From assembly GCF_000003815.2 (NCBI RefSeq), contig NC_049992.1, positions 20,686,340 to 20,750,339 on the forward strand: a DNA stretch of 64,000 nt, given 5' to 3'. Positions 2,162 through 39,700 of the stretch are shown in pieces. This DNA is from Branchiostoma floridae (Eukaryota > Chordata > Leptocardii > Amphioxiformes > Branchiostomatidae). Position numbers and translations under genes: made by a program. Each line of letters starts with the position of its first letter. The first letter of the stretch is position 1. The notes beneath the pieces are model-generated. The model had not been told where the DNA came from. It was given only the letters and a program-made list of their open reading frames with translations, and made no database searches.

Positions 2162-3860
2162 ACTAGAAAGGCCGACATTTGCTTGAGAGCAAATACAGCA
2201 TATTTCAGCCATCTCCCTCCCCATGCAACAATAGACTATTTCAAAATCACCCATTTGAGAAAATCACTTTTACTAATGACGGTTTAACCCAAAAATGAAT
2301 CTTACAAAATTCCCCCGTTCAAGAATGGACTCCAGTGCACCCTATGTGAATTTGCACAATAGACCAGTCCAGAAATACTCCCACTGAAACCTTGGCCTTT
2401 TGAATAAGAAACCAAATCCAAAATTGAATTTAGCAAAAAAGGTCCCAGTGCATGAAAAGGTATAATAGACCAGTCTAAAAACACTTCCACTAAAAATTGA
2501 ATTTTGAATCATCACCCGTCCAAACTGAATTTGAAAAAATCCCCCTTCCGTGTGCAAAAAATGGACTCTTCAATGTTAAGTAGAGCAGTCCAAAAATACA
2601 TCCGCTAAGATAGGACTTTGACATAATCACTGAAGTCCCAAAAATAGATTTTTAAAAAAGCCAATGGATTTTTTAAAAAATCCCCCCTCCATGCAAGAAT
2701 GGACTCTTCCAGCACACCCATTTAAAATTGCACCAGTCCAAAAATAACCCTACTGAAAGACTTTGACAAACTAGAAGTCACCAAAGTCCAAAATATGAAT
2801 TAAAAAAAATCCCCCCTCCGTGCGAGAATAGACTCTTCCAGCACACCTTCTGTAAAACTGCAAAATAGACCTGTCCAAAAATACACCCACTGAAAGACTT
2901 CACCAGTCTGAGGATGAATTTTAAAAAAAAATGAACCCCTCCGTGTAAGAATGGACTCTTCCAGATAACACCGGACTCGCTGATTGGCTGTCACCCCCCC
3001 CCCCCCTCTTTAGGATATAGATTCAGGCTAAGTGATTGGTTACCTATCTAATTAGATTAAATAGACATATATGCCGGAAGGTGCAATCTGCAGCTGGGGT
3101 CAACGACCTTAAGGTCATCGACCCCTCTGGCTATCTGGCTATTGGAAAATGACAAAAAAATCCCCAAATATATCATTTTGACGTAGTCTATGACAAAAAT
3201 TATACATGTGTCATTTGAATAAATATCTAGTGCACCATTTTACCAAAATTTAGGTCACTTGGTTTTAAAACCAGAGCACAAGAGCCAAAAGTGTACTTTT
3301 TGGTCATAAAATGGCCAAATAATCGCAAAATTAAGCATTTTGTTGTACTGTATGCCTCAACTGTTAATGAATCCATGTGCGCATATGTCTAGGGCACTCC
3401 TATACTAAATTTCAGGTCATCCGTTTCTAAAACCAAGGTACAGGAGCCAAAAGTGTCCTTTTTTGGTAAAAAAATGACCCCAAAATCGCAAAAACAAGCA
3501 TTTCGTTATACTGTACACCAAAAGTGGTATTGAATTTTTATGGGGGAATTATCAAGGCACATCTGTGCCAAATTTCAGCTCATTCGGTTATAATACAAGG
3601 GTACAGGGGGCCCAAATATACAGTTTGGGTCTTAAGATGACCAAAAAACCTTAATAAAATCATTTTAAAGGCAGATATGAAAAAAATGAAAAAAAAAAAC
3701 GTCTGGGGGTATTGGCCCACTCTACCCTTGTGTCAAATTTCAAGTCAATCGGTTCAGGAACAACGGAGATACCGTGTTCCGAAGATTTGACAGGAGAAAG
3801 AAAGAAGAAACATTACGAATACAATATATTTCACCATACCTATGGTATGGCTGAAATATA
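2162..3860 (-). mobile_element. Non-autonomous Helentron/Helitron2-like element (copy A)
   Basis: Read on the minus strand, the element starts at about 3860 with TATTTCAGCC followed by a small hairpin (CCATACC ata GGTATGG). It ends at 2162 with a 6-bp-stem hairpin TTTGCTctcaAGCAAA, an 11-base spacer and CTAG, followed by T. The 5' TATTTCAGCC is matched by its inverse complement just inside the 3' hairpin (2201-2210). This asymmetric inverted repeat plus 3' hairpin plus CTAG is the structure described for Helitron2/Helentron elements. It carries no Rep or helicase ORF, so it is non-autonomous. Inside are diverged tandem repeats: units of roughly 120-135 bp near 2300-2990, and units of about 160 bp at 3150-3760. 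A C-run sits at 2994-3006. It matches 15207-16950 in inverted orientation. Confidence 0.75.
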
Positions 3861-12659: not shown

Positions 12660-13757
12660 TATATTGCAATCCATACATAGTATGGGATTGCAATATATTG
12701 TTTTTCCTTGGTTTCTTCTTCTTCTCCTGTCAAATCTTCAAATTGATTCAACTTTTTCATTTTTAGGCCAAATGAGCTGAAATTTGGCAGGGTGGTAGGG
12801 ATAGCAAATACCCCCAGGTGTTTTTTTCACTTTCTTCATAGAGGCCTTAGAATTTATGATATTTAGGGTTTTTGGTCATTTTTAGACCCATTATGTATAT
12901 TTTGGGACCCTGTGCCCTGGTATTACAACCTAATGGCCTGAAATTTGGTACAGAGGTGCATTGGACATATGACCACAGGACCCCATCAACATTTTTGTCA
13001 TAGATTACTTAGAAATTAGTTATTTTGGGGTGTTTTGGCCATTTTTGACTAAAAATGTATATTTTTGGCTCCTATGCCCTTGTATGGAAACCAAATGACC
13101 TGCAATTTAGTACATAGGTGCATTGGACATATGACAACAGGACCACATCAACGCTTTTGTTATTGATCATTTCAAAAATGAGTTATTTTGGGTTTTTTCG
13201 GCCATTTTTGACTAAAAATGTTTATTTTTGGCTCCTATACCCTTGTATGAAAACCTAATGACCTGAAATTTGGTACAGAGGTGCATTCAACATATGCTCA
13301 CAGGGTCCCATTGACACTTTCTTCATAGATCACTTCAAAAATTAGTTATTTTGGGGTTTTCAGTCATTTTTGACTAAAAATGTATATTTTTGGCTTCTAT
13401 GCCCTTGTATGTAAACAAAATAACCTGAAATTTGGTACAAATGTACATTGGACATATGACAACAGGACCCCATCAACACGTTCTTCATAGAGCACTTATA
13501 AAATGAGTTATTTTGGGATTTTTAGCCATTCTAAACTAAAAAAAAATGTATATTTTTGGCTCCTACATGTATGCCCTTGTATTGAAACCAAATGACCTAA
13601 AATTCGGCATGAAGGTGTGTAGGACAAGTGCCCACAGTACTTCATTTTCCCTTTGAGCAAACATTACTTCAAATTGTTGAATTTTGGGATTTTTTCCAGG
13701 ATGAAGATGGATTGCAATATGCTGTATTTGCTCCTAAGCAAATGTCGGCCTTTCTAG
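12660..13757 (+). mobile_element. Innermost Helentron, TATTGCAATCC type (element 4)
   Basis: The 5' end TATATTGCAATCC with hairpin lies at 12660-12699. The 3' end GGATTGCAATATGC, hairpin TTTGCTcctaAGCAAA and CTAG lies at 13709-13757. After CTAG the sequence resumes with TCCTTTGTCTCTTCTCCTGTC-like sequence matching the start of element 3's body, which shows it was inserted there. Confidence 0.65.
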
Positions 13758-15110
13758 TCCTTTGTCTCTTCTCCTGTCAAATCTTCAAGTTGATTCAACT
13801 TTTTCATTTTTGGGCCAAATGAGCTGAAATTTGGCATGGAGGTAGGGATAGCAAATACCCCCAGGTGTTTTTTTCACTTTTTTGATAGAGGCCTTAGAAT
13901 TTGTGATATTTAGGGTTTTTGGTCATTTTTAGACAAAATATATATATTTTGGGCCCCTGTGCCCTGGTATTAAACCCTAATGACCTGAAATTTGGTACAG
14001 AGGTGTATTGGACAGATAAGCACAGGAACCCAACAACACTTTCTTCATAGACCACTTCAAAAATTAGTTATTTGTAGGTTTTTAGACATATTTGACTAAA
14101 AATGTCTATTTTTGGCTCCTTTGCCCTTGTATGAAAGCTAAATGACCTGAACTTTGGTATATAGGTGTATTGGATATATGAGCAGATGGCTCCATCAACA
14201 CTTTCTTCATAGATTACTTCATTTCTGGGCCAAATGAGCTGAAATTTGGCAGGGTGGTAGAAATAGCAAATACCCCCAGGTGTTTTTTTTCACTTTCTTC
14301 ATAGAGGCCTTAGAATGTATGATATTTAGGTTTTTTGGTCATTTTTAGACCAATTATGTATATTTTGGGACCCTGTGCCCTGGTATTACAACCTAATTGC
14401 CTGAAATTTGGTACAGAGGTGCATTGGACATATGACCACAGGACCCCATCAATATTTTGTCATAGATTACTTAAAAATTAGTTATTTTGGGGTGTTTTGG
14501 CCATTTTTGACTAAAAATGTATATTTTTGGCTCCTATGCCCTTGTATGGAAACCAAATGACCTGAAATTTAGTACATAGGTGCATTGGACATATGACAAC
14601 AGGACCACATCAACGCTTTCGTTATCGATCATTTAAAAAATGAGTTATTTTGGGTTTTTCGGCCATTTTTGACTAAAAATGATTATTTTTGGCTCCTATA
14701 CCCTTGTATGAAAACCAAATGACCTGAAATTCGGCATGAAGGTGTGTCTGGTATGTGCCCACAGTACCTCATTTTCACTTTGGGCATACATTACCTTGAA
14801 TTGTTGAATTTTGGGATTTTTTGCCATTTATGGACTAAAAATGTTAAGTTTTGGCTCCTGTGCCTATGTATGAAAACCAAATGGTCTGAAATTTGGTATG
14901 AAGGTGCGTACAGTATGTAGCCACAGGAGTCTATCCACACCTATGGTGTACATCAATCAAAATTTGTGAAATTTTGGATTTTTTGCCATTATTGACCAAA
15001 AATGTACATTTTTGCTTCCTGTGTCATGAGAAAGCCAACTGATCTGGAATTTGGTGTTGGGGTACCTTTAGCACTATAAATGGGAAATGGGCCACATAGA
15101 CTGGTCCATT
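12745..15110. repeat. 162-bp tandem repeat array inside Helentrons
   Basis: Diverged copies of one unit recur at a period of 160-163 bp. Landmark positions of GACTAAAAATG or its variants are 12886, 13047, 13210, 13372, 13533, 13933, 14093, 14509, 14671, 14833 and 14994. Each unit contains a TGACCTGAAATTTGGTACA block and a TATATTTTTGGCTCCTATGC block. Related units occur in element 2 (15290-15880) and in copy A (3150-3760). Confidence 0.85.
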
Positions 15111-16735
15111 TTGCATAGATTGGGGTGTTCTGGAAGAGTCCTTTATTGTATGAAGATGGATTGCAATATGCTGTATTTGCTCCCAAGCAAATGTCGGCCT
15201 TTCTAGTATTCGTAATGTTTCTTCTTTCTTTCTTTCTCCTGTCAAATCTTCAGAACACGGTATCTCCGTTGTTCCTCAACCGAATGACTTGAAATTTGGC
15301 ACAAGGGTAGAGTGGGCCAATACCCTCGGGCGTTTTTTTCATTTTTTCCATATCTGTCTCTTAAATGATTTTATTAAGGTTTTTTGGTCATCTTAAGACC
15401 AAAACTGTATATTTGGGCCCCCTGTACCCTGGTATTATAACCGAATGAGCTGAAATTTGGCACAGATGTGCCTTGATAAGTCCCCCATATAGATTCAATA
15501 TCAGTTTTGGTGTACAGTATAAGGAAATGCTTATTTTTGCGATTTTTTGGTCATTTTTTTACCAAAAAAGGACACTTTTGGCTCCTGTACCTTGGTTTTA
15601 GAACCGGATGACCTGAAATTTAGTATAGGATCGCCCTAGACATATGAGCACATGGATTCATTAACAGTTGAGGCATACAGTACAACAAAATGCTTAATTT
15701 TGCGATTATTTGGCCATTTTATGACCAAAAAGTACACTTTTGGCTCTTGTGCTCTGGTTTTAAAACCAAATGACCTAAATTTTGGTAAAATGGTGAACTA
15801 GATATTTATTCAAATGACACATGTATAATTTTTGTCATAAACTACGTCAAAATGATATATTTGGGGATTTTTTTTTGGTCATTTTCCAATAGCCAGAGGG
15901 CCAGCTGCCGATTGCACCTCCTGGCATATATGTCTATTTAATCTAATTAGATAGGTAACCAATCACTTAGCCTGAATCTATATCCTAAAGAGGGGGGGGG
16001 GGGGGGGGTGACAGCCAATCAGCGAGCCCGGTGTTATCTGGAAGAGTCCATTCTTACACGGAGGGGTTCATTTTTTTTTAAATTCATCCTAGGAATGGTG
16101 AAGTCTTTCAGTGGGTGTATTTTTGGACAGGTATATTTTGCAGTTTTACAGAAGGTGTGCTGGAAGAGTCTATTCTCGCACGGAGGGGGGATTTTTTTAA
16201 ATTCATATTTTGGACTTTGGTGACTTCTCGTTTGTCAAAGTCTTTCAGTAGGGTTATTTTTGGACTGGTCTAATTTGCAATTTTAAATGGGTGTGTTGGA
16301 AGAGTCCATTGTTGCATGGAGGGGGCTTTTTATAAAATCCATTGGCTTTTTTTAAAATCCATTTTTTGGACTTCAATGATTATGTCAAAGTCCTATTTTA
16401 GCGGATGTATTTTTGGACTGCTCTACTTTACATGGAAGAGTCCATTTTTTGCACACGGAAGGGGGATTTTTTTCAAATTCAGTTTGGACGGGTGATGATT
16501 CAAAATTCAATTTTTAGTGGAAGTGTTTTAAGACTGGTCTATTATACCTTTTCATGCACTGGGACCTTTTTCTGCTAAATTCAATTTTGGATTTGGTTTC
16601 TTATTCAAAAGCCCAAGGTTTCAGTGGGAGTATTTCTGGACTGGTCTATTGTGCAAATTCACATAGGGTGCACTGGAGTCCATTCTTGAACGGGGGAATT
16701 TTGTAAGATTCATTTTTGGATTAAGGTCTACAAGT

Positions 16736-17474: not shown

Positions 17475-17902
17475 CGCCTGATTTCAGAAAAAAAGAGAAT
17501 GTTTTTCCTCTTCAGGGATGATTGGATATACCTAAAAAGACAAACATGATGTGTTTTAGCCTAATAATCATACTTGTAGAACTGACACCAGGAAGGTGGC
17601 CATGACTACAGTTGCAGAAGTGAAAGTTGTTGGATAGTTGTAAAAGTGACACCAAATATGGAAGTCATGAATGTAGTTGCCAGCTTTGCAAGTGATACTG
17701 GTGTACCACACTAGTATCACTTTTACTACACTAGTTCATTTTTTTAATACAGGAATGAACGTCGTGTTAGTTGTGATGCCACGTTTTGTCACTTCAAATT
17801 AATCCTGCCACGACGTTTATTGTGTTTATTTTGATAATCGAGACATCTCATTATTTTGCACTCTGCATAGTGTGTCATCGATAGAATCTACTTGCTGTGG
17901 CC
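17475..17902 (+). mobile_element. MITE copy, GGCCACAGCAA family, left end missing
   Basis: The right terminal repeat (…CTACTTGCTGTGGCC) ends at 17902 and is followed by TTA. The interior (a CACACTAGTATCACTTTTAC-like stretch and a GGAATGAA block) matches the full copies at 31041-31560 and 54043-54606. The left terminal repeat is absent near the glycosyltransferase exon. Confidence 0.65.
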
Positions 17903-18700
17903 TTAGCAAATTAAAATAATGGTAGAGACTCTAATTTAGAAAGTTCAGTTGCAAGTTTGTTCCCAAAGGCTAATTGCAAGTACACTGTAGAACACTGTAA
18001 AACATCGGAGACATACATGTAATAAATATTTTTTTTTTAAATAAAGACTGCACAACTAGTGGTGTTAGCTATATCTAGACAGGTTGTGTTTGACTTCTTT
18101 TTCTCTAGAAATTGTGAGTTCTGCAATTTTCTGCAAAAAGTGTTTCCGTTCGCCCGTTTATATTGAAAAGTTAAAGTTGAATGAATGTTGACATAGAGCA
18201 TTTACATTATTTCTCACGCTGCTAATGTCATATAGTTCTAGGTCCGCTGCAAACGTTTAAAAGCCGCATTTAGTCGGTATACGTAGGCCACAGCAAATGA
18301 ATTTTACGGATGACGTCCTTTTTAGAGTGCAAAAATAATGAATAAGGGGGAAAAGCTACTATCCAAGGTTAAGCAGAGGTTAGGCTCCGGCTGTTTTTTT
18401 AACGTTTTTCACGACGCCCCAGGGGCGAGCCTAATATTATAGTGTGCGAATTCGTAGGCATGTGAGGAATTTTTACAGCCATGCGTAGTAGTATCATCTG
18501 AGTATTCCCCAGGGAATTTGTTTTCAAGAGGTTTTAAGTATGTTTTGGGGGAAATGGGTGCCGATCGTGCGCTCCTGCTAAAAAAATGTTAAATTGTGTC
18601 TTAATCGTACGATCTTACAATATTCTTCGGTATACTAGTTTGTAGATGCAATATCTACTACCGGAATAAGTTTTTTCGTCTCTTCTAGTGATTTCCCTCG
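17903..18700. other. Intergenic, with a MITE left-end fragment
   Basis: No gene recognised. A left terminal repeat of the GGCCACAGCAA family starts at 18286 and points away from the copy ending at 17902. A segment at 18418-18510 (CAGGGGCGAGCCTAATA and following) resembles 30665-30775. No partner right end was found downstream. Confidence 0.45.
18286..18560 (+). mobile_element. Left-end fragment of GGCCACAGCAA MITE family
   Basis: It begins GGCCACAGCAAATGA with ACGGATGACGTCC following, as in the full copies. Only this end is present. Confidence 0.5.
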
Positions 18701-18767
18701 TAATACGACGGTATCTAGGTGCTGCCCCCAAGACCCAAGCCGTACCCAAGCCGTACCCAAGCAGAAC

Positions 18768-20687
18768 ATGGCCGACAGAGGTGACCGTAACGAGCTTTAC
18801 TCTCTACTTGGAGTGCCTCCTACAGCTACGCGCGATGAAATCATCGATGCATACAAGAGAGCAGTTTTGCAGTATGAAGAGGCTTCAACGTTGGGCAGAA
18901 AGGACAGCGCTTATAAGGAAGCTGACTCAAACTATAAAGAGGTGAGCAGGGCGTTCTTTGTTCTTTCTGACGCGTCGCACAGACAAATCTACAATGACAG
19001 CGGCGTCATCCCCAACTCTCCCAAGCCTACCAAGAAGTCAATACGGCAGCGAAGAGACTATTGTGTGCAACATAATTCACAAAGCATAACTATCTATGTA
19101 CCCCCAAACCTTGCGAAGTCCTGGCTAACTGCCTGTGAAGAAGAGCACGCCACTAATGCAACAAAATTGACTCAAGGCCACCAAATCAAAACTACGTTCG
19201 GTGATGCCAAGTCTGAAGAATCGGTTGGAACCGTGAGCATCACAGTGTATGAAAGCACTCAAAAACTGTTGATTCAGGGTTCGGCATATTTGCTCTGGTT
19301 TTCAGAAGTCTTTCCTACACTTAGGAAGAGAATCAAAGCCAAGTCTGTCAGTGCTGAAACTCAAACCGAAAACATGGCTTCCGAGGCGGCAGATAGCTCA
19401 GAGTCTGTGATTGTTCCTAACCCGTCAATTTGCCAAACATGCGATCAGCCCCTATCATCCGATGTTTGCCCTTTATGCAATACTGTACCTAAAGACTTTG
19501 TGGATGTGAACAGTAATGAGATCAACACTTCCGCAAACCACCTCATTCAAGACAGCATCAACAAGCTGGAAACCTGCCTGATAAACTCCATCGCAGACAG
19601 AAAGCTGTTTGAGGACTCTATCTCTCAACGCCTCTCTGCTCTGGAAGCCAAACCAAACTCATGCAAACATGTTTGTGACATTTCATCTACTGTTGAGGGA
19701 AGAAGATTAAGGGAGGATATTGTGCGACTAGAGGGTGTAAAGTGTCAGTTGGAGCGCGAAGTCAAGTCATTGCAGGAAAAACTAGAGGAGTTAGCTAGTT
19801 ATGTCCACATCCAGTCCAGTAAAACGCCGATAGAACTGAAATCTATGGAAACCCAGACCACAGATAATCAATCTATGGATCAAGATTCTGATCGTGCTGA
19901 TAAGCTGATACACGAAGTCGTCGCTACAGTGAACGTACAAAACCGATTTGAAGTTCTGGATAAAGTCTCTGATCATCCCGACTCAGACAGTTCGCACATG
20001 CTGTCGAAACAAGGAGCACGGAGTGTCAATTCAAAGGCAAATCACAGGACCCACGCGACCCGCTATGAAAAGGCACCGCCAAAGGACGAAGGAATTAGCA
20101 CCTCTCAGGGAAAACAAGGCACACAACTCGACATTCTGATTTTGGGGGACTCAAATACAAAGGCGCTAAAAGGGGACATTCTATACCCCAACAAAAGTGT
20201 GAGAAAGGAGCTAACATATAACTTGACAGAGGCTACCGAATATATCCAACACTCCAGGTTGCCTGATCCTAAGGTTATTTTGGCTCATGTCGGTACAAAT
20301 GACATTCGGGACATCCGAGATGCATCGAAAGTGTCTGAAGGCTTCCGCAAGTTCATTCAAACCTCCCGTGACAAATACCCACAGACCAGTCTTGTCCTTT
20401 CGTCCATTCTACCAAGAGACGCCCCTACCCTACACGGTATCGGAGATGATGTGAATTCCTTTCTGAAAGTAGTCGGGGATGAAACGAGCTTCGTCCATAT
20501 CGTTGACAACACAAACTTTGCCAACGAAGGGGCGATTAAAAGTGCTCTATTCGCTTCGGACGGCTACCATATCAACAGGAATGGAATTCGCGTTCTAGCT
20601 GCTAATATCAAGCGAACAACCAACACGATGGTCCAAAAGGGCATGAAAAATCCCCACTTGTGGGACATGAATATTGATGATAATTAG
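18768..20687 (+). CDS. ORF1: J-like domain + zinc ribbon + coiled coil + SGNH esterase
   Basis: An uninterrupted 639-residue ORF starting at ATG 18768. Residues 7-80 read as a J domain (LYSLLGVPPTATRDEIIDAY … FFVLSDASHRQIYNDSG), but the HPD tripeptide needed to stimulate Hsp70 is absent; the loop reads QYEEAST. Residues 100-187 form a second, unnamed globular-looking segment (ITIYVPPNLAKSWL … LLIQGSAYLLWFSEVFP). Cys222, 225, 234 and 237 make a zinc-ribbon-like CxxC-x8-CxxC. Residues 310-345 look coiled-coil. Residues 454-620 are an SGNH/GDSL hydrolase with GDSN (460), GTND (509) and DGYH (598), as in the ORF1 esterase of CR1/L2 LINEs. The lack of introns, same strand as the downstream ORF2 and the esterase domain point to a retrotransposon ORF1. 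A host retrogene is the alternative. Confidence 0.8.
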   Translation: MADRGDRNELYSLLGVPPTATRDEIIDAYKRAVLQYEEASTLGRKDSAYKEADSNYKEVSRAFFVLSDASHRQIYNDSGVIPNSPKPTKKSIRQRRDYCVQHNSQSITIYVPPNLAKSWLTACEEEHATNATKLTQGHQIKTTFGDAKSEESVGTVSITVYESTQKLLIQGSAYLLWFSEVFPTLRKRIKAKSVSAETQTENMASEAADSSESVIVPNPSICQTCDQPLSSDVCPLCNTVPKDFVDVNSNEINTSANHLIQDSINKLETCLINSIADRKLFEDSISQRLSALEAKPNSCKHVCDISSTVEGRRLREDIVRLEGVKCQLEREVKSLQEKLEELASYVHIQSSKTPIELKSMETQTTDNQSMDQDSDRADKLIHEVVATVNVQNRFEVLDKVSDHPDSDSSHMLSKQGARSVNSKANHRTHATRYEKAPPKDEGISTSQGKQGTQLDILILGDSNTKALKGDILYPNKSVRKELTYNLTEATEYIQHSRLPDPKVILAHVGTNDIRDIRDASKVSEGFRKFIQTSRDKYPQTSLVLSSILPRDAPTLHGIGDDVNSFLKVVGDETSFVHIVDNTNFANEGAIKSALFASDGYHINRNGIRVLAANIKRTTNTMVQKGMKNPHLWDMNIDDN

Positions 20688-22630
20688 ATGCCAGTCACTG
20701 TTGTCTCCATTGGAAACTGTCCGTGATTGGTTGAAAACTTAAAAGGCGGGCCGTAGTAATGTTTATGTTACGATATCTCCCCTGTGTCAACGTCGCTATT
20801 CATATGCGTTACCGGCCGCTGTTTCAATTGTTATTACATTAGCACGTTTTAACAATACCAATTCGTTGCCTGACTCAAAACCAACAGGATTTTTAGTATA
20901 GTTTTGTCCATCTTGTGGTCAAAATACCCAAGGATATTCCATCATTAAAAAAACATATATATATATATATCAGTCAGCTCGCAGCTGGTGAAGTTGGACG
21001 ATTTACTAGTGCTGGGTTTCGATGGCAAAAGATTCAATATGGCGCTAGTAGTAGTAAAATATTCCAAACTGAACGTATTTGTAATATAATTTAAACAGCC
21101 ACCAAGCCACTTTTCAGCGACAAATTATTGTCAGGATACGGTTTGAAAGTTCCTTCCGATAAAATAGAACAAGATAGCGCAACAGTTGGAACGGATTGGT
21201 TGCACCGAGCGCCACTGTGCTCAAATAGAAGACACCATTCTATTAAACTGTCCATTGCCAGTCCCAGTTTGTATGTTTTTCTCTCCAATCATTGCCCAGG
21301 TTGTAGACCAGCCTTCAAGTTTATTTGTAATCCTGAACTGGCATTTTAGACCTTTTCAAAAAGGTGCTTTGTAAATTGTTACGAATTACCGACGCCGTCA
21401 GTTCTTGACAACAATCATCCCGCTTGGGTAACATCATTTGTAGCAGCATGGGTGAGTTGTACATTAAAAAAACACAGGCACGATTTATTTTGAGACCAAT
21501 TATCTAATTGAGTCACATATTCTTTAAAATGTGTTCTGGTCAATTTGATAAAAAGTCCTGAAATGAATTAACTAACGCTATGTTTAGTTTAATAAAGAAA
21601 ACAATCCAAAACAGCACGCAACATTTCCCACCACAATACAGTAGACTATCCCATTGACCTGAGATGAACCGGCGGGCGCCATGTTTGATTTCCCAAGCGG
21701 TCACGAAAACTCGACCCAAAAACAGAATAAAGAAGGAAAAATACACAAGCATACACAAAACACACACAACTTAGGAGGATGAAAACTTAAGTCTGATTCA
21801 TGTAACCGATGCCCAGAATATAGTTGTGTAATATAATGGAGACAATCAAATCAAGTTACGGAACGATAGTGAAAAAAAAAACGTGGTTCGTCCAAAACTA
21901 GCTTAAAACAAGCAGCTTTGACCAAAACTCATTGCTTGTAACTTACAGGGCTAAAGTTCTAAATACACACACCAAACGATTTCAAAGACTTTGATTTACA
22001 GTTGAAAACCCCGCTCCCAGCACAGGCACAAAGAGGTGATTTGCATGAAAGTGCCCGCGAAGACAAAGGGGCGCTAATAAGGCTCTGTCATCTATGCCAA
22101 CACCGCCTCATTATAGCTTCAAAACATCTCTTTTTCAGCGTGGAAACTGTGAATAAAGTGCACATTTCATATTTCATCCGATATCTTCCGATCCTACCGA
22201 TAAAATGAAACAAAAACTACTCCATTTGAAAGAGCAAAAGCCGCCCGCCATCTTGATTTTCGTATTTGTTTTTCTATCGGTGCGTTCAGGAATTATGGGA
22301 GAAAAAAGTGTCGGTAAATAGGAACGGGATTTTAAATGTATCAGACATAAAAAAACTACACAGTAGAAATTTTTTAAGTTTTACGTCGTTTCAAGGCTGA
22401 CATTTTCATTTATCATGTATATACTTTTGTTAATTTATATCATAAACTAATCGATCGTAATCTTGGGAAATACTTCTGCTGCTTTCTGTATATATGCCGT
22501 GCGGCACTTCAGACCCGCCTGTGGGTGTGGCCTATTAGCATAGCAACGAGAAGAATAGCCTAGCAACGGACCAGCGTGCAACCCTCTCTTAGGCCTGGGT
22601 CAGTACACGGGCAGGAAGAACCAGCCTGCA
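20688..22630 (+). other. Non-coding spacer between ORF1 and the proline-rich ORF
   Basis: No convincing coding potential. It contains a TA-rich run at 20955-20971, a GCCATCTTG (YY1-type motif) at 22248-22256, and two TAGCAACG motifs near 22540-22570. It could be a long internal promoter/spacer of the element, a 5' UTR of the proline-rich ORF plus ORF2, or an unrelated insertion; I found no terminal repeats to mark an insertion. Confidence 0.4.
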
Positions 22631-23266
22631 TTGAACACAATGCCAAGCTCTCAGTACCGGACATACAGAGACGCTGTGATCGGAGTACCGGCAGATAAGA
22701 CTAGTGCCCCTCCTACTCAACACGGGAACAATTCTCGCCCGTCTCCACACACACAACCAGCACGGGATCGGGGACAACAATCACACATTGGGCCCGCCCC
22801 AACATCGGGACAAGACCGATCACCTACTTCAACCCATGCGCTAGATGCTGGGCGAGAACATAACGCAAATGTGCACAGGAGACCACCAGCCGATAACCCA
22901 CCTAACATTTCAGCTGGTCCTACTTCAGAGAGACTCGAACACTTCTCCAGTACACCCTGGAACAGTAACCCTCCCCCTCGCCAAGGACCCGCGGCCCCAA
23001 GTTCATCTAAAGCTCCGATGGGACATCCAGCGAACCCGTCCAGAAGCCCAATAGGGCACTGGAGTCAGCCGCCACCCATCCCAAGTCGTCTCTCCGGACC
23101 CTGGGGCCCGCCCATCTTCAACCAACCGGCCGGCCCGTGGGGATTCTCCCCGGTGAACACTCCTGTCCTTACCCCGCCCGGCCAGTCTCAGCCTCCACGG
23201 ATGAACCCACCGCCCTGGTCCTGGCATCCTAACATGATGTGGCCTCCGATGTTCCCGGTGTGGTAG
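22631..23266 (+). CDS. Proline-rich 211-aa ORF upstream of LINE ORF2
   Basis: Starts MNTMPSSQYRTYRDAV and runs 211 residues without a stop. It is low-complexity: proline, serine, glycine and tryptophan dominate, with a C-terminal half of repeated PWG/PPW motifs (GPWGPP, GPWGFSP, PPPWSW, MWPPMFPVW). No enzyme motif, zinc finger or membrane segment is visible. It ends 360 bases before ORF2's first ATG on the same strand, the place of a LINE ORF1. By analogy with disordered, RNA-binding ORF1 proteins it might bind element RNA, but this is inference; it lacks the basic patches I would expect. The composition bias also keeps the antisense frame open, so coding is likely but not certain. Confidence 0.5.
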   Translation: MNTMPSSQYRTYRDAVIGVPADKTSAPPTQHGNNSRPSPHTQPARDRGQQSHIGPAPTSGQDRSPTSTHALDAGREHNANVHRRPPADNPPNISAGPTSERLEHFSSTPWNSNPPPRQGPAAPSSSKAPMGHPANPSRSPIGHWSQPPPIPSRLSGPWGPPIFNQPAGPWGFSPVNTPVLTPPGQSQPPRMNPPPWSWHPNMMWPPMFPVW

Positions 23267-23626
23267 GACTTCTATACTTAGTCATACAGTCTGTACATTT
23301 CGATTAGAAAGACTGTATCCGAGACTACTGCATTAGTCAAAGCTAAGCTATTTGTAGATACACAGTGATACTAGTATTTAGTTACGTTGGTAGTCATTTT
23401 TAGTTTAAGAAATATACAAAATGATTTAGACGTACATATATGTATTTTTTGTTGTTGTAGTTGTTGTTGATCAATTTTGATTGATTGTTTACTTAGTTTA
23501 CATTTATCTAAGCTTACCTCAAATTCTCATGTTAAAGCTAGTAAGGTCCTGTGAGACATTGTGGATCGGACCGTAAAGACACAATTTTTTCTTCTTTTTC
23601 CCATTTCATTTAACTCATCCTTGGAT

Positions 23627-26600
23627 ATGAAAGCATTTTCTGGAGGCAACATGAACTTTTGTTTCTGGAATGTCCACGGGCTGGGTTCAAAATTAGAGGA
23701 TTTAGATTTCTTGTATAAAATTGACAAATTTGACTTTATCTCGCTTCTGGAAACGTGGAGTACTGAAAAAACAAAAATTAACATACCAAACTACAGTTCT
23801 TTTCAACTGCATAGAAAGAAGAGTAAACGAGCAAAACGCTCATCAGGGGGCATCATTTTCTTTTTCAAAGAACAATACAAAGCTTTTGTTAAAAAATTAC
23901 CATCAAAATCAACAGATTTGCTTTGGGTTCAGATAGATCGCAAATTACTAGGATTAGACAAAGATCTTTTTATTTGTTCAGTTTATATCAGTCCTAGTGC
24001 ATCCACAACGCACAAACACACAGTAAACCATGTAATAGAAATTTTAGAGGAAGAGATATGTAAATACAGTCCTCAGGGTTTCATCCTACTAGGCGGTGAC
24101 CTAAATTCTCGTCTAAGAAATTTACAAGATTTCGTTGAAGATGACACTTTCTGTGATAATCACCCGAATAACTTCTCAAACATTACATTAGATAGACAAC
24201 ACATGGATCAAGCTCCCCCCAACAAGTTTGGCAGATTTGTGGCTGATTTATGTATTCAAGGAAATCATAAAATTCTTAACGGCAGAATAGCCGGTGATCT
24301 ACAAGGAAAATTCACGTGTCATCAGCCAAACGGTAGCAGCACTGTTGATTATGTAATATGCAACCAACCGCTTCTAGAACACATTTTATTTTTTCGAGTT
24401 AACCCCCTAACCACATTCTCTGATCACTGCATGTTATCTGTTGTCTTACGTACAAAATCCTCAAATCACCCTGCCAAAGAGAAACAGATAAGTGGAAACA
24501 GCAAACCTCTCTCTAAAAGATTCCATTAGAATGAAACCTCTGCACAAAAGTTTTTTCAATCCCTCAGCCAACCACACATTATAGATAGACTTAATAACCT
24601 TTCACTTAGAGGAACCAAAAGCGCAGCCCACGACATTGAAAACTACGTCTCGGATCTCAGCTCAGTATTAAGAGATGTCGGTTACAAATCATTGTGTTTA
24701 AAGATTAATAGAAAACGGCCAAGGAAAATAAAAAACAAGAAATGGTTTGACAAAAGCTGTTGTGAAATGAAACGGGAGCTAAAAAATCTGGCATCTTTAC
24801 TCGAGAAAAATCCACAGAACTCAGACGTGAGAGGAAGGTTTTTTAAAAGGAAAAAAGAATATAGAAAACTATTTAAAAAAAAGAAACGAGACTTTCATCA
24901 ACAAATCGTTAACCAACTGTCCTCTTTGAGGGAAGAAAACCCAAACGCGTTTTGGAACTTATTGAAGAAACTGAAGTCAGAGAAAACACAAGAGCCAAGT
25001 TCTCAAATAACGGATGAGGCGTGGTTAAAACATTTTAATAGAATAGACAAATCTTCCATCAGTGACTCAGAAACTTCAACTAATAACTCAACAAATGTTC
25101 AAACTCATTTTCCCTCCCCTCTCCCTCCTACAGAGAATTCCTTTTTGGACTCTCTGATATCAGCTAAGGAACTGGATATAGCCATCTCCAAACTAAAAAA
25201 CAGCAAATCTAGTGGTAGTGATATGATTACAAATGAAATGCTGAAGTGTGGTAAACCAATCCTACAAAAAACACTGCTTCATCTCTTCAATTCATGTTTG
25301 CAAAACGGATACTTTCCCAAAGAATGGTCACTTAGTCATATCGTACCAATACACAAGTCAGGTGATACCTCAGTCCCAGACAACTATCGGGGTATCTCTA
25401 TTATGAGTTGTCTGGGGAAATTATTCTCGTCCATTTTGAATACTCGTCTTGTGAACTATGCGGAACAGAACAGCCTTTTTAAACCTCAACAGGCCGGTTT
25501 TAGAAAAAACTATAGAACGTCTGATAATCTTTTCGTATTAACTACTTTAGTAAGCAAATATCTCAGTCAAAATTCACGTCTTTACGCATGCTTTGTTGAT
25601 TTTAGCAAAGCTTTCGACTCTGTTTGGCGAGAGGGTCTCTTGTTCAAATTAAATAATCTTGGAATAGGAGGAAACTTCCTATCGACCATAAAAGACATGT
25701 ATTCCAAAACTAATAACTGTATCAAAACCAACAATCGTCTTACCGAAACATTTGTAACTAACTGCGGGGTTCGACAAGGCTGTAATCTGAGTCCAACATT
25801 GTTTAATTTGTTCATTAGTGATATAGTATCTGAATTTGATAACTTTTCTAGCAATTCTCCTATTCTGTACAGCATGAAAGTGCCATGTCTTTTATATGCC
25901 GATGACTTGGTTATCTTCTCAGAATCCCAACAAGGCTTACAGTCCTCCCTACTTAGACTAGAACAATATTGTAAATCATGGAAGCTGAAGGTTAACCTGA
26001 AAAAGACAAAGGTTATTGTATTTACAAAGGGAGGCCGCTTACCAAAAGATTGTAGTTTTTTGTTTGATAATAATGCTTTAGAAATAGTAACATCTTATTG
26101 TTATCTAGGTATTGTTGTATCCTCAGCTGGCACATTCAAAGCCAACAGCAAATACTTATACAGCAAGGGATTGAAAGCTCTATTTGGAATTAGACAATCA
26201 TTAGACAAAGCAGACGCACCATTATCAGTTAAAAACAAACTCTTCGACACTTGTGTTAAACCTATTTTGTTATATGGATCTGAAATTTGGAGCTCATTCA
26301 AAAGTCCTATATCTTGTCCTATTGAAACAGTGCACTTGAAATTTTGTAAACACTCACTTAATGTTCCGAAAACTGCATCTAACCTTGCTGTACGCGCTGA
26401 ATTAGGGAGGTATCCTATCCAACTGGAAGCCTCCCTAAACGCCATCAAATATTTCATTAGAATTCAACAGAATGTGCCAGCTGAGAGTCTGCAGGCAGAC
26501 GCTCTCTTATGTCAGCTTAATCTAGATTCATCAGGTACCAAATGTTGGGCATCTGGTGTTCGCAAAACTTTGGAGGAGTGTGGTTACCCTTTTGTTTGGC

Positions 26601-27145
26601 AAGCCCGTAAGTCAACAGATCCAAACATATCCCACCTAATTTCTGCAATCCACCAACGACTGAATGATATTTATTTCCAGAATTTTCTAACCAACATTCA
26701 TAATGATAATAAAGGTTTACGTGCGAAAAACAAACTCCGAACGTACAGACTACTGAAATCCACATACAATGAAGAGCAGTATTTGAAAATCACAAACATT
26801 CGGCATAGAACTACCATTGCCAAACTAAGAATCAGTTGCCACCGACTGCGAATTGAATCGGGAAGGCACAGCCGCACTCCTCTAGAACAAAGAATCTGCC
26901 AATTTTGTACCTCAAACATGGTAGAAGATGAAGTGCACTTCACTGTTGATTGCGATATGTATGCGAATGATAGAAATACTCTATTTAGTTATATAGAAAG
27001 TAGATTCCCTCATTTTAGACACATGAGTAGCACTGACAAGTTTATATTTCTCATGCGTTTTGACAAACCGACAATAGCGAAACCCATACAGTCCTACATT
27101 TTCACTATTACCAAGAAGCGAGAAGAAGCCGAACTTTTGTGTTAG
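23627..27145 (+). pseudogene. LINE ORF2: APE endonuclease + reverse transcriptase, one amber stop
   Basis: One continuous frame from ATG 23627 to TAG 27143-27145 (1,172 codons) is broken only by an in-frame TAG at 24527-24529. There are no other stops or frameshifts, and the frame before and after is the same. N-terminal part: AP-type endonuclease with NVHGLGS, LLETW, GGDLNSR, STVDYV and FSDHC, so all catalytic positions are kept. Middle: reverse transcriptase with YRGISIMSCLGKL, FVDFSKAFDSV, GVRQGCNLSPTLFNLF and LLYADDLVIFS (YADD at its core). C-terminus: RICQFC … DEVHFTVDC, a CxxC-H-C zinc knuckle. The amber lies in the linker after the endonuclease, in a spot where related proteins usually have Trp (TGG to TAG), so it is probably a nonsense mutation. 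Product: target-primed reverse transcription enzyme; a CR1/L2-like or neighbouring Jockey-group clade is likely. Confidence 0.9.
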
Positions 27146-27226
27146 ACTAGATTTGTGACACTTTTATGTATGTATATATCCTGATTTGTTGTGACCTGTA
27201 CTTAGCCCGGTTGGGCAAAATTGTAC

Positions 27227-27260
27227 AATAAAGGTCTTCATTCATTCATTCATTCATTCA
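27227..27260 (+). terminator. LINE 3' end: AATAAA signal and TTCA tandem tail
   Basis: AATAAA at 27227-27232 is followed by about six TTCA units. Short tandem repeats at the 3' end are typical of CR1/L2-type LINEs and are used for target-primed reverse transcription. Confidence 0.8.
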
Positions 27261-27271
27261 ATATAATACGA

Positions 27272-28038
27272 TGACAAAATCGATGTTATGAACTTGGTAT
27301 ATTATGTTAAGTTTTAGGTTCTTCTTCGTTTCACACATAGTCTGATATGTCTGATATGTTTTGAATTGTTAAAAATCTATTACTTTGTTGAGTAGACAAC
27401 ATGTAATCAAAGCAATGTTTAGTGTTAAGTTTTTTATGACCGACTGAATACAGCACATCACATTTTTAACAAATTACCAGATATTATGTAGCAATAGAGG
27501 AGATAAGTGTGTGAGCCATATATCTTGGCTTGTATTTAGAACCACTTGATGTATAGATGTCGTGTATGTATGAGGATTGTGATGTTTTGTATGAGGGTTT
27601 TTATTTCAATGTGTTTTAAGTCATGTATGGTTGTGGGACCCGTGCTATTTCACGATTTTTTTTTCTGCTGTGATGTTCCTTTGATTTTTTTTTCTGCAGT
27701 GAAATGGTCGCACAGCCCAAACCATCGCGACCAGGGCTCACGCTAGTCAGGCGATTCAATCTGTAACCCTAGGGTTGTCATGACGACGTTTACCTGTGTA
27801 AACAGAGAGGGAGAGAGGAAAGATATGAATACGTTGATTCCGCCATAAGTGATAGAAACTAGGAAACTTTTGTTTGTCTGGATCGGTAGAAATTGAATCA
27901 TTCTGTCAGTTACAACACACAACAATACATCCCTGGATGCTCACGTGTCATCGCTTTGACCGATGAAGACTATATCTCTCATAACCAGAGGTAATCTCCA
28001 ACCAGATCCACGGTGGCGTAATATATACTATCAAAGTA
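27272..28038. other. Intergenic; nothing recognised
   Basis: AT-rich sequence with no supported ORF or repeat between the LINE and the hAT-like element. Confidence 0.4.
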
Positions 28039-31040: not shown

Positions 31041-31560
31041 GGCCACAGCAAGTAAATATTATGGATGACATCAGCGCGCGCATTAATGTTCGCAAGATTT
31101 CGGGGGAAAAAAACAAGAATTTTTTTCTTCTGCAGGGACCGTCAACATGACGATAAAGTACCCAAATGAGCAAATATATTTTGTTGTAGCCTAATGATTG
31201 TACTTGTACAAGTGACACTTGCAAGGTACCCAGGACTGTAGCTGTAGAAATAAAACTTATTGGATATATGGAAGCTATGAGTGTGCTAACCAACTTTGTT
31301 GATGATGCCAGTCTACCACACTAGTGTCACTTTTACCACACCAGTACATGTCTTAAAAACAGGAATGAATGCCTTGTTGGCTCTGATGCCATGTTTTGTC
31401 CCTTTAATTCTTTTTACAACAGTGGTCACAACTTTATGGTGCCTATTTTTGAAAATGTAGCCATCTTGTTTCTTTTTACCTATCTTGTTTTTTTTCGTCC
31501 CATCGCACGTTTTTTGCAGTCTGCAGAGGATGTCATCCAGAAAATTTACTTGCTGTGGCC
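31041..31560. mobile_element. GGCCACAGCAA-family MITE, complete copy
   Basis: Terminal inverted repeats GGCCACAGCAAGTAAAT…GGATGACATC (31041) and …GATGTCATCC…TTACTTGCTGTGGCC (31560), with TTG directly repeated on both sides (31038-31040 and 31561-31563). 520 bp, no coding capacity. Confidence 0.8.
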
Positions 31561-31563
31561 TTG

Positions 31564-36794: not shown

Positions 36795-39700
36795 CTTAAA
36801 AGAAACATTATCAATATTTGTACTTTAATTTTTGTTGAAATCTTGAATGTTCTATCTGGTATTAACTTATAAATTGATGACCAGCATTCAGACTCTGTAT
36901 GACTGTACAATGTATGTTTGATCATGCATACCTTTCATTTCTATATAATTAATGAACACTGGAACAACAGTTACTGTTTGATGAAACCTATATGATTGAT
37001 ATACTGTGGCTGGTAAATTATTAATGTATTCAATGTGTACCTGTATTTCCTAATACACTACTACTGGATAGAAACACTCCACATTTACAGTTTGTATGAA
37101 TAGGTTGCCGGAATGGCCTTCCTTTGGAGAAGACAAAGGCTGTCGTTACATATTGGAATGTTGCTATCCCAAACATCGTGGCCGTTTCATAAGTCAAAAC
37201 CTTCATCACTTTGATGTGATACTTTCACTCTCATAGTCAACTGTACATGGTTTCAAGGTGGAGTTCATGGTGATATTGCTGTCAGTTGTATTCATGCTTC
37301 CATCATTACAGAGTCTATAGTCCTCCCAAGGCACAAACCTGTGAATATAAGACATCACATACACAGTACAGACTTTGGGATATGCATCAAGTTCTGCAGT
37401 GACTACCGTTGATACCATCATGGTAACTACTGTGGAAATATCGCTTTGACTAGGGCGGGATATTGTGGTGACTGCTGTGGAATTTCCTTCAGAATCCCAT
37501 GGGATGATTCTCAATGTTTAGCATAACACTTCTGTATCCTACTCTGTTAACATGCCATCTGCGGCATTTACCTGTTACCATGAAAAGAAGTTTGGGCACC
37601 ATGATGCCAAAAAAAGGGTATGATTTGGCTTGGCATACAGCTTGACTTACCGATTTACAAATTAAACAGTTTTCGATCATGAAAGGGGCCATCAATTCAA
37701 AGTATATATGTGGTTAAAACCTGATGATCTAAAACCAATCAACCAATCTGAATGAATTTGTTTAATGAAATATTTAAAGGAAACAATAATTGAATATTTC
37801 TAAGCTTAAGAGAAGCACCATGAATTTTCAGTCGTTGACCTTCATCAGATGTTTGATTTACTGCACTGACATTCCGAAAGTCGTATCAAAGAGACTTCAA
37901 GAGCGAATCGAAAGTGGCAGGAAGATGGAATCTACCACCGTCACGGATTAGCGAGGGTTGGTGTGCTCTAAATTGATATAAATTGCCTCCTTAACCCCCT
38001 TACAAAACAGTCCTGCTCAATGTCCAAAATCTATATCTGTAATCAGATGAAACTGTATGTTTAGGAGATTATACAGTGTGTATATGAATAATTGTTGAGA
38101 CATTTTCGATGAGGTACAGCTGGGGCACATGTTCTCTAAGAATCTAGCTTTAAGTGACCACAGAAGAAGAGCAGGACCGAAGCATACCTTTTCTGGACAC
38201 ACTTACAGTGGTAAAAGAGGATGGTTCTTGGATGTAAAAACATGTATAGGAAACCCAAGCATATGGATCAGTACTTACACATCAACTCTAACCATCCTCT
38301 ACAAAACAAACTGGGACGCAATTTCCCTGCATCAGGTGCAGATTGTGGACACGGACTGGTTTGTGAGGGGGGTTAAGGAGACAATTTACATCAGGGCGCA
38401 TCATTGCTGAACCGTGATGGTGGTAGATTCCGTCTTCCCGCCACTTTTGATTTGCTCCTAACGTCACTTCCGACTATCAGAACATCAACGCAGTAAATCA
38501 GTCATCTGATGAAGGTTGAAGAGATCGACCAAAAATTCATGCTGAGTGTTTCCTTTGTGTTGGATCAAAGTATAAAACTGTTCAACTATGGATTCTAACA
38601 AGAACACAGATGAGTCTTCATTCAAAAATAGAAAAGGTGTTCGAGTACAATCACTACCCTCACCATGGCTGTGCTAGTAGAAGGTAGAAAGCCCCTAGTT
38701 GGAAAGCCAGTTGAATGGCAATCTGCACTACCACAGAGAACAGGACTGTGGGCCTCAGCAAACTTGTTGGTGGTCGCTGTCGTACCAGCTTTGGGTACGC
38801 TGAGTTGCGGCTCACTAAAACGTGGAAGAGGATAATAAATTGTTGCAAACACTTTTACTGTAAATCCATACACTTTTACTAAATATTCCAGGAAGCTATT
38901 TTTGGTGTCATTATTCTCATTTGTATAAAAGCAATTTGATGAGTTGATAATGATGACTTTGATCTGATGACTTGACTAATGGAAAAAGATAATGTTTTAT
39001 AATTATGTTACAGATAAATCTTGGGCTCATTATCAGCATTCTCTAGGAGTGGTATTACCTTTTTTTTGCCAGCCAAGGCTTAAACAATAACTACATAAAT
39101 AATTTCAAACAAATGACAGATAAAAATTAGAAATGTGGCCTTGACAGATATATACTAAATTAGTAATTATATAATTCTATGCAGGAATTTTTTTGCTATA
39201 AAAAGAAGGCTGCAGCCAAGGAAGAAAGTTAGGAAGAAAAAATTCACATTTGATGTAATGAAATGGCACTCACTGACAAAGGCAATGGTCGTTATTATCA
39301 CCAAGTCTTGATAAAGGTACTGGGTGTCACCCAAGTTGGCAAAGACCTTAAAAGGATGCACATTTTATCATTACATAAGTACCGACATGTACAATTTGAT
39401 ATTACTTAAAAATATAAGCTTAGGTAATACATTAAAAAGCTTATTTTTAGGTAATAATAATAATAATAATAATAACTGTTCTTAGTTATAGATAGACAGT
39501 CAGATAGTCATCGATAACCAAATCAGTCTACGTCTAGATCTTTGTACAATTCTTCCCATCGTCTTCTGTCTGCTGTTGTTTCCCTTATGCATCTTAACAT
39601 GTGAGTCTCAAGTCTAATGTTCTGGTTGAGATGTAGCATGCAGTCGTCTACCAGACTACTGAGGAGGCCTTCACGTGGCCTTCCTAGCCTTGGTTTGAGT

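Follow-up and report, generated by a model that had tools for sequence, protein, structure and literature searches.

We have analysed a 64,000-nucleotide stretch of the Branchiostoma floridae genome (NC_049992.1, positions 20,686,340 to 20,750,339, forward strand), which we call the window and in whose numbering all window coordinates are given. It carries a long interspersed nuclear element (LINE), and we consider it highly probable that the first open reading frame (ORF1) of this element encodes a modular protein with a J-like hairpin, a middle domain, a PHD finger (whole or reduced), a coiled coil, an SGNH esterase and a C-terminal tail, the hairpin having a proposed docking function. This protein is encoded ahead of an ORF2 for an endonuclease (EN) and a reverse transcriptase (RT). 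The J region is conserved, with a ratio of nonsynonymous to synonymous substitution rates (dN/dS) well below 1 as a point estimate, and the HPD tripeptide is absent from all 19 ORF1s compared. Judged from sequence, it would be a new arrangement: an esterase-type LINE ORF1 with a J-like (HPD-less) and a PHD module, a combination that we have not found described.

The J-like domain was recognised first from sequence. A Pfam search with the whole protein matched DnaJ (PF00226) at residues 10-76 (E 7.3e-10, 39.2 bits against a cut-off of 27.8) and the value improved to 1.8e-11 when the N-terminal 89 residues were the sole query. In a sequence search of the PDB, the same 89 residues matched DnaJ2 (4.9e-10; presumably the Thermus protein), Ydj1, Sis1 and others. 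The N-terminus is predicted to fold as a J-type hairpin of three helices (residues 4-14, 22-41 and 47-77), with block means of the predicted local distance difference test (pLDDT) of 74-86 across residues 11-60. The original prediction, made from the letters of the window, had seen a close fit to a J domain in the N-terminal 80 or so residues and had called for both the profile search and a structure prediction. These agree with it: the profile match is above cut-off and the predicted fold is a J-type hairpin. In the structure comparison, J and J-like domains are among the matches to this model, tied in score with unrelated helical hairpins; the first row is 2guz (which we take to be Pam16/Tim16), with a sequence identity of 13%. 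Because of these ties, the sequence match is the stronger evidence. It is scarcely credible that the match is simply the chance likeness of a helical hairpin since, although the model matches helical hairpins from unrelated proteins with the same Z, DnaJ is detected from sequence alone in six divergent ORF1s (E 4e-8 to 2e-11) and the ORF1 family profile places J domains at the top of the PDB list (8.6e-12).

The 19 ORF1s were obtained from a set of 20 genomic regions of 9.9 kb, in 18 of which ORF1 is readable (L015 is gapped and L022 split; the ORF1 of L028 is cut short), together with the first 619 residues of the window ORF1. The replacement of HPD, also claimed in the original prediction, extends to the entire family: the window carries EEA at this position, followed by a longer loop than that of DnaJ2, and across the 19 ORF1s the tripeptide is EEA, ENA, EST, EKT, EET, DNI or VKE. 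Helix II, positive in a canonical J domain, has a net charge of 0 to -5 compared with +2 in Thermus DnaJ2. The window ORF1 thus has a J fold without HPD, of the Pam16/Tim16 kind. We expect from these sequences that the domain does not stimulate Hsp70, because HPD and the basic helix II have been lost while the core has been kept.

The ORF from which the analysis started (18768-20687, 639 codons, + strand) is indeed present and is longer than expected by chance (the longest run in 20 random 64-kb sequences, one strand, was 238 codons). Its proposed extent required correction. Residues 620-639 and the stop codon belong to a 1,954-bp insertion, beyond which ORF1 continues from 22579 to 23266, so that the proline-rich ORF at 22631-23266 is its true C-terminus. 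The insertion is bounded by 10-bp terminal inverted repeats (9/10 identical) and a target duplication of 3-4 bp (4-base overlap), includes no ORF of 150 codons between 20625 and 22578, and looks like a non-autonomous DNA transposon, for which kinship with CACTA-type elements was considered by eye. It is missing at the same site in L009, L010, L031 and L032, the last two being about 99.3% identical to the window element across the stretches compared. The features of the element are:

18560..27280 (approximate ends), + strand: whole LINE copy, including the 1,954-bp foreign insertion; from the limits of similarity to L010 (3' limit of similarity to L009 at 27254).
18560..18767, + strand: approximate 5' untranslated region; similarity to L010 starts here, and the L012 leader is of like length (1233 to 1460).
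18768..20624, + strand: first 619 codons of ORF1, up to the insertion; from the ORF list and alignment with copies.
18789..19007, + strand: J-like domain, about residues 8-80, with EEA at the HPD position; from Pfam DnaJ, the model helices and the copy alignment.
19050..19352, + strand: conserved middle domain, residues 95-195; from the copy alignment, with weak Pfam matches to RnlA_toxin and DUF3378.
19431..19478, + strand: CxxC...CxxC (C222, C225, C234, C237); from alignments, and from the PHD matches in 6 of the 19 ORF1s.
19521..19802, + strand: coiled coil or leucine zipper, residues 252-345; from the heptad score (best heptads about 312-347).
20121..20624, + strand: SGNH esterase from residue 452 (S462, N511, D598, H601); from Pfam, the PDB sequence match and motifs.
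20625..22578, no strand assigned: the 1,954-bp insertion splitting ORF1; from alignment of the window with L009 and L010.
22579..23266, + strand: remainder of ORF1, with the end of the esterase region and the proline-rich C-terminal tail; collinear with the uninterrupted ORF1 of L002/L009 and L010.
23651..24529 (alternatively from 23561), + strand: APE-type endonuclease part of ORF2 (Exo_endo_phos, PF03372, 6.9e-7), ending at an in-frame stop in the window copy.
24692..27145, + strand: reverse transcriptase part of ORF2 (RVT_1, PF00078, 2.5e-41), in the same frame as the endonuclease part.
27234..27262, + strand: 3' tail of TTCATTC-type repeats, seen in the sequence and like the tail in L011-L013.

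In L002/L009 (96% identical) ORF1 is a single frame of 849 residues from the ATG that takes in the J-like domain, the esterase and, at its end, the same proline-rich tail, and in other copies the same ORF1 also stands upstream of an EN-RT ORF2, as in known esterase-type LINEs. The LINE association proposed at the outset is therefore borne out: the J-esterase ORF is ORF1 of the window LINE, because copies show it uninterrupted and the intervening DNA is an insertion. The ORF2 itself has the APE endonuclease and reverse transcriptase expected of an APE-type LINE. The window copy is broken twice, by the insertion in ORF1 and the stop in ORF2, and related copies without either exist. From the window alone, with 1.9 kb of seemingly non-coding DNA between the ORF and the remainder, no RT noticed there by eye, and a codon usage that differs from that of ORF2 (6/500 shuffles as extreme against RT, 9/500 against EN), the ORF might be taken for an independent host gene or a domesticated ORF1, but this is almost certainly not so: related copies have the same ORF1 unbroken, followed by ORF2, and inverted repeats and a target duplication mark the gap as an insertion. 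For the same reason, the view that the ORF and the LINE are separate units with the proline-rich ORF between them was rejected.

The family was defined by a genome search covering 513,431,437 bases in 431 contigs, in which the best 69 of 277 candidates were scored with ORF1 and the best 55 of 9,578 with ORF2. At least 35 of the 88 ORF1 match rows start at residue 8 or before and reach residue 89 or beyond. ORF1 identity to the window ranges from 96% down to 25%, and six subfamilies can be distinguished: A (window, L009, L010), B (L011-L014, L016), C (L017, L018, L020, L021), D (L019), E (L023-L025, L028) and F (L026, L027). Pfam finds DnaJ at an E-value of 0.01 or better in 17 of the 19 ORF1s. 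The other two, L026 and L027, keep a degenerate version (hhalign 71% for L026; L027 presumably lacks a DnaJ match likewise, its N-terminus being near-identical to that of L026), so that these related copies retain the J region; its absence from them is what the original prediction had named as telling against it.

Nine of the 20 regions (L011, L012, L013, L016, L021, L023, L025, L026 and L027) have ORF1 and ORF2 each as one long open frame, although from its N and X counts the L026 ORF1 appears to cross a 100-base assembly gap, and the L011 ORF2 is about 14 residues short at its end. The trees of ORF1 and ORF2 of nine elements agree except for the order among near-identical copies. L012 is 99.6%, 99.5% and 99.2% identical to L013, L016 and L014, respectively, over 6.5-6.7 kb at different places; these four copies have CATT-type tails and different flanks, and L012, L014 and L016 share one start point. 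Their near-identity, different flanks, tails and common start point indicate recent retrotransposition. Four RT regions (C7:6112748-6115198, C2:4920287-4922737, C9:18360718-18363168 and C4:226869-229319) are 99-100% identical in protein to that of the window, a sign that its own subfamily has also been recently active. Dispersed and 5'-truncated copies with similar 3' ends are found, as is usual for APE-type LINEs.

Two observations concern subfamily F as such. L026 (1299-5059) and L027 (1277-4999), both on the + strand, are 92% identical through ORF1 and the endonuclease and the match ends inside ORF2; their branch lengths are 0.04 and 0.02 for ORF1 and 0.23 and 0.20 for ORF2, far closer in ORF1. 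The pattern is suggestive of sequence exchange between LINEs close to the EN-RT boundary. Their ORF1 stop and ORF2 ATG overlap by one base (at 4200 in L026 and 4146 in L027); in ten other elements 193-524 bases lie between ORF1 and the chosen ORF2 ATG.

The J-like domain appears to be kept by natural selection. In 13 pairs of ORF1s, dN/dS in the J region is 0.00-0.45 (point estimates). In an alignment of 14 ORF1s (A4, which omits subfamily F and the near-duplicates L013, L014 and L016), L10, Y11, L14, Y29, E58, V59, F63, L66, S67, D68, R72 and Y75 are invariant; the copy alignment also shows variable loops.

Twelve places lacking an N-terminal match were examined individually: eight from the ORF1 search (C18, C180, C1:12.27M, C16, C11:10.90M, C10, C3 and C12:3.89M; L029, L030 and L035-L040) and four (L031-L034) from the ORF2 search. 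None holds a full-length ORF1 without the J region, in a search that was not exhaustive for the genome. In the first eight, similarity starts at residues 121, 122, 205, 192, 437, 319, 169 and 350 of the best query, and in L031-L034 it begins inside ORF1 or ORF2. Assembly gaps occur in five of the twelve (L031, L033, L035, L036 and L038). We read these places as 5'-truncated or gapped copies because of the scattered starting points in ORF1 or ORF2, or the gaps. Full-length relatives without the J region may exist elsewhere in the genome, given the fractions of candidates scored. No relatives of ORF1 were found in viral contigs or, with a query devoid of the J region, in bacterial and archaeal genomes, and all 12 matches in phage records are confined to the J region. 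Since these are not collections of animals, the negative results say little about other animals.

The C-terminal half of the protein is of the kind suggested by the original prediction, an esterase as in CR1/L2 ORF1s. The best PDB sequence match of the C-terminal part is the ORF1 esterase of the LINE ZfL2-1 (4c1b, 2.3e-6), its closest solved relative by sequence, followed by platelet-activating factor acetylhydrolase (4.3e-4). Lipase_GDSL_2 (PF13472) matches residues 493-606 at 3.8e-7 with the whole protein, slightly below cut-off, and at 5.3e-8, above cut-off, when the C-terminal part is the query. It is found at 0.01 or better in 19/19 ORF1s. The motifs GDSN, GTND and DGYH stand at positions 460, 509 and 598. 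A coiled coil precedes the esterase, as in other esterase-type ORF1s, and its heptad score is reached by one in 500 shuffles. In the window's subfamily and those related to it the tail that follows the esterase is proline-rich.

ORF1 also has parts beyond those recognised originally, namely its middle domain, zinc pair and coiled coil. The middle domain is common to all subfamilies, with N103, S106, P112, W119, E124, G154, K166, Q170, L176, W177 and L185 invariant in the 19 sequences. It matches RnlA_toxin in 11 of 16 (best 0.017) and DUF3378 in 4 of 16 (best 0.079), at E-values that families unrelated to these equal or better. We suspect a TBP-like fold of the type that we take to form the N-terminus of RNase HIII; the weak matches would fit this but prove nothing. 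A structure comparison of residues 103-190 matched Pcc1 (9d85_P, 3eno_C) and other chains, to which no weight is given because pLDDT there is below 50. The PHD finger is whole in subfamilies E and F, where the cysteine region reads C4HC3 in the alignment (Pfam best 4.7e-5). Pfam PHD is found in 6 of the 19 ORF1s and was seen individually in L023, L024, L025 and L026. The window copy lacks the complete finger and keeps CxxC...CxxC alone. This is best read as a shortened PHD finger, since subfamilies A-D retain just two CxxC pairs where E and F have the whole.

A number of observations weigh against this interpretation of the protein. The N-terminal model is derived from a single sequence, and its pLDDT reaches 50 only at about residues 6-67 and 90 nowhere; three unrelated chains share the Z of the top row (root-mean-square deviation 3.8), and all 50 matches listed lie within 1 of it. 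In the ten pairs for which both values were computable, dN/dS in the J region is higher than that of the esterase in five, equal in two and lower in three, and some of the values rest on few changes. In the deepest subfamily the J-like region is 15-26% identical to the others and degenerate enough for Pfam to miss it in L026. For the middle domain, PDB sequence searches gave no match of weight, and its fold assignment is not firm. Lastly, the 'complete' SGNH set of the original prediction stands as regards the Ser-Asp-His triad and the block III Asn, but the block II glycine of the oxyanion hole cannot be placed: there is no Gly between residues 469 and 509, where the alignment is uncertain. 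Without a recognisable block II glycine, catalysis by the window esterase is not certain.

How might such a protein work? By analogy with other esterase-type ORF1s, the coiled coil would multimerise it and the esterase would place the ribonucleoprotein (RNP) on membranes. The middle domain and PHD finger may bind nucleic acid or chromatin. The J-like hairpin could provide a surface for docking, either of one ORF1 molecule on another or onto a host J-protein or a different partner. Pam16/Tim16 is an HPD-less subunit of the mitochondrial import motor that pairs with Pam18/Tim14. Our preferred, unproved reading is docking of the hairpin with itself or with a host J-protein in the manner of Pam16. 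The results fit the original suggestion that a retroelement captured a chaperone-cofactor fold; its proposed role in host-protein contact or RNP assembly is something that we infer.

Two alternatives concern this role. The hairpin may be an inherited structural cap or spacer of ORF1 with no partner of its own, a possible although unlikely explanation: it would account for the degenerate domain of subfamily F and the variable loops, but not readily for J-type residues and low dN/dS that persist across deep divergence. It is more doubtful still that the domain works with Hsp70 non-canonically, bringing it to the RNP. In favour of this, the scaffold is well preserved (the 12 invariant positions of A4), but every one of the 19 ORF1s is without HPD and the positive net charge of helix II is lost. 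The docking reading can be extended to a full scenario, which we put forward as speculative and rather unlikely: a LINE lineage took a J domain from its host, lost the Hsp70 switch of that domain ahead of the split into subfamilies, and now retains the domain as a Pam16-like adaptor which, by gripping a host J-protein or a second ORF1 molecule, controls chaperones in RNP assembly. If this is true, the retrotransposon would act by way of the Hsp40 system, its J domain serving as a decoy.

Parts of this architecture have precedents. Polyomavirus T antigens have an N-terminal J domain in a viral protein; they keep HPD and use Hsp70. Pam16/Tim16 has a similar J hairpin without HPD, but here the fold sits in a retrotransposon protein. 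The esterase-type (type IV) ORF1s of CR1, L2 (ZfL2-1) and RTEX, as portrayed in the available text of PMC3905857 and PMC4120745, likewise have their SGNH esterase at the C-terminus, following a coiled coil and a linker with little conservation, and are encoded ahead of an EN-RT ORF2. Unlike these, the window family adds the J-like domain, the middle domain, the PHD finger and a long post-esterase tail, and its block II glycine is not recognisable. Such esterases occur in many animal phyla, and in ZfL2-1 the coiled coil dimerises, and an active esterase binds negatively charged lipids (available text of PMC3905857). PHD-containing ORF1s (type III and others) are found in the CR1/L2 lineages (PMC4120745, in part), and share PHD with subfamilies E and F; the window family differs in combining it with J-like and esterase domains, and in its reduction in the window's subfamily. 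Bdelloid LTR (long terminal repeat) and Penelope-like elements with GDSL ORFs share the SGNH/GDSL esterase but are of other element classes (PMC5408684, in part); the word DnaJ is missing from the main text of that article.

A survey of CR1, L2 and Jockey ORF1s lists RRM, zinc knuckle, PHD, esterase, coiled coil and zinc finger/leucine zipper (PMC4120745, available text). In the portions available of PMC4120745 and PMC3905857 J domains are unmentioned, the sole 'DnaJ' string in the former being a reference artefact. We found no description in the literature of a J domain with a retrotransposon ORF1 or SGNH esterase, in a search that did not extend to Repbase and most subscription journals; Repbase may hold these elements unremarked. 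An HPD-less J-like module, kept down to about 30% ORF1 identity, adds a protein-handling fold to the known LINE ORF1 modules. This suggests that certain retrotransposons interact with co-chaperones of the host or assemble by means of a J scaffold. The available text of PMC3905857 reports no RNA-binding domain in esterase-type ORF1s and leaves open how those without an RRM bind RNA; the conserved middle domain is a candidate answer.

The window contains several other repeats. A second LINE lies at 39523-41980 on the minus strand in three open pieces, its RT 24-28% identical to that of the first, and an ORF at 60117-60707 resembles, by eye, the last part of a further LINE reverse transcriptase ORF. 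Several tandem arrays, their unit being about 162-163 bases long, occupy 3241-3607 and 12828-15854, and a further array at 47097-47582 has 9.8 copies of a 50-base unit with 96% matches. A short dispersed repeat is present at 17636-17905, 31266-31562 and 54289-54609, its copies being 77-94% identical in pieces.
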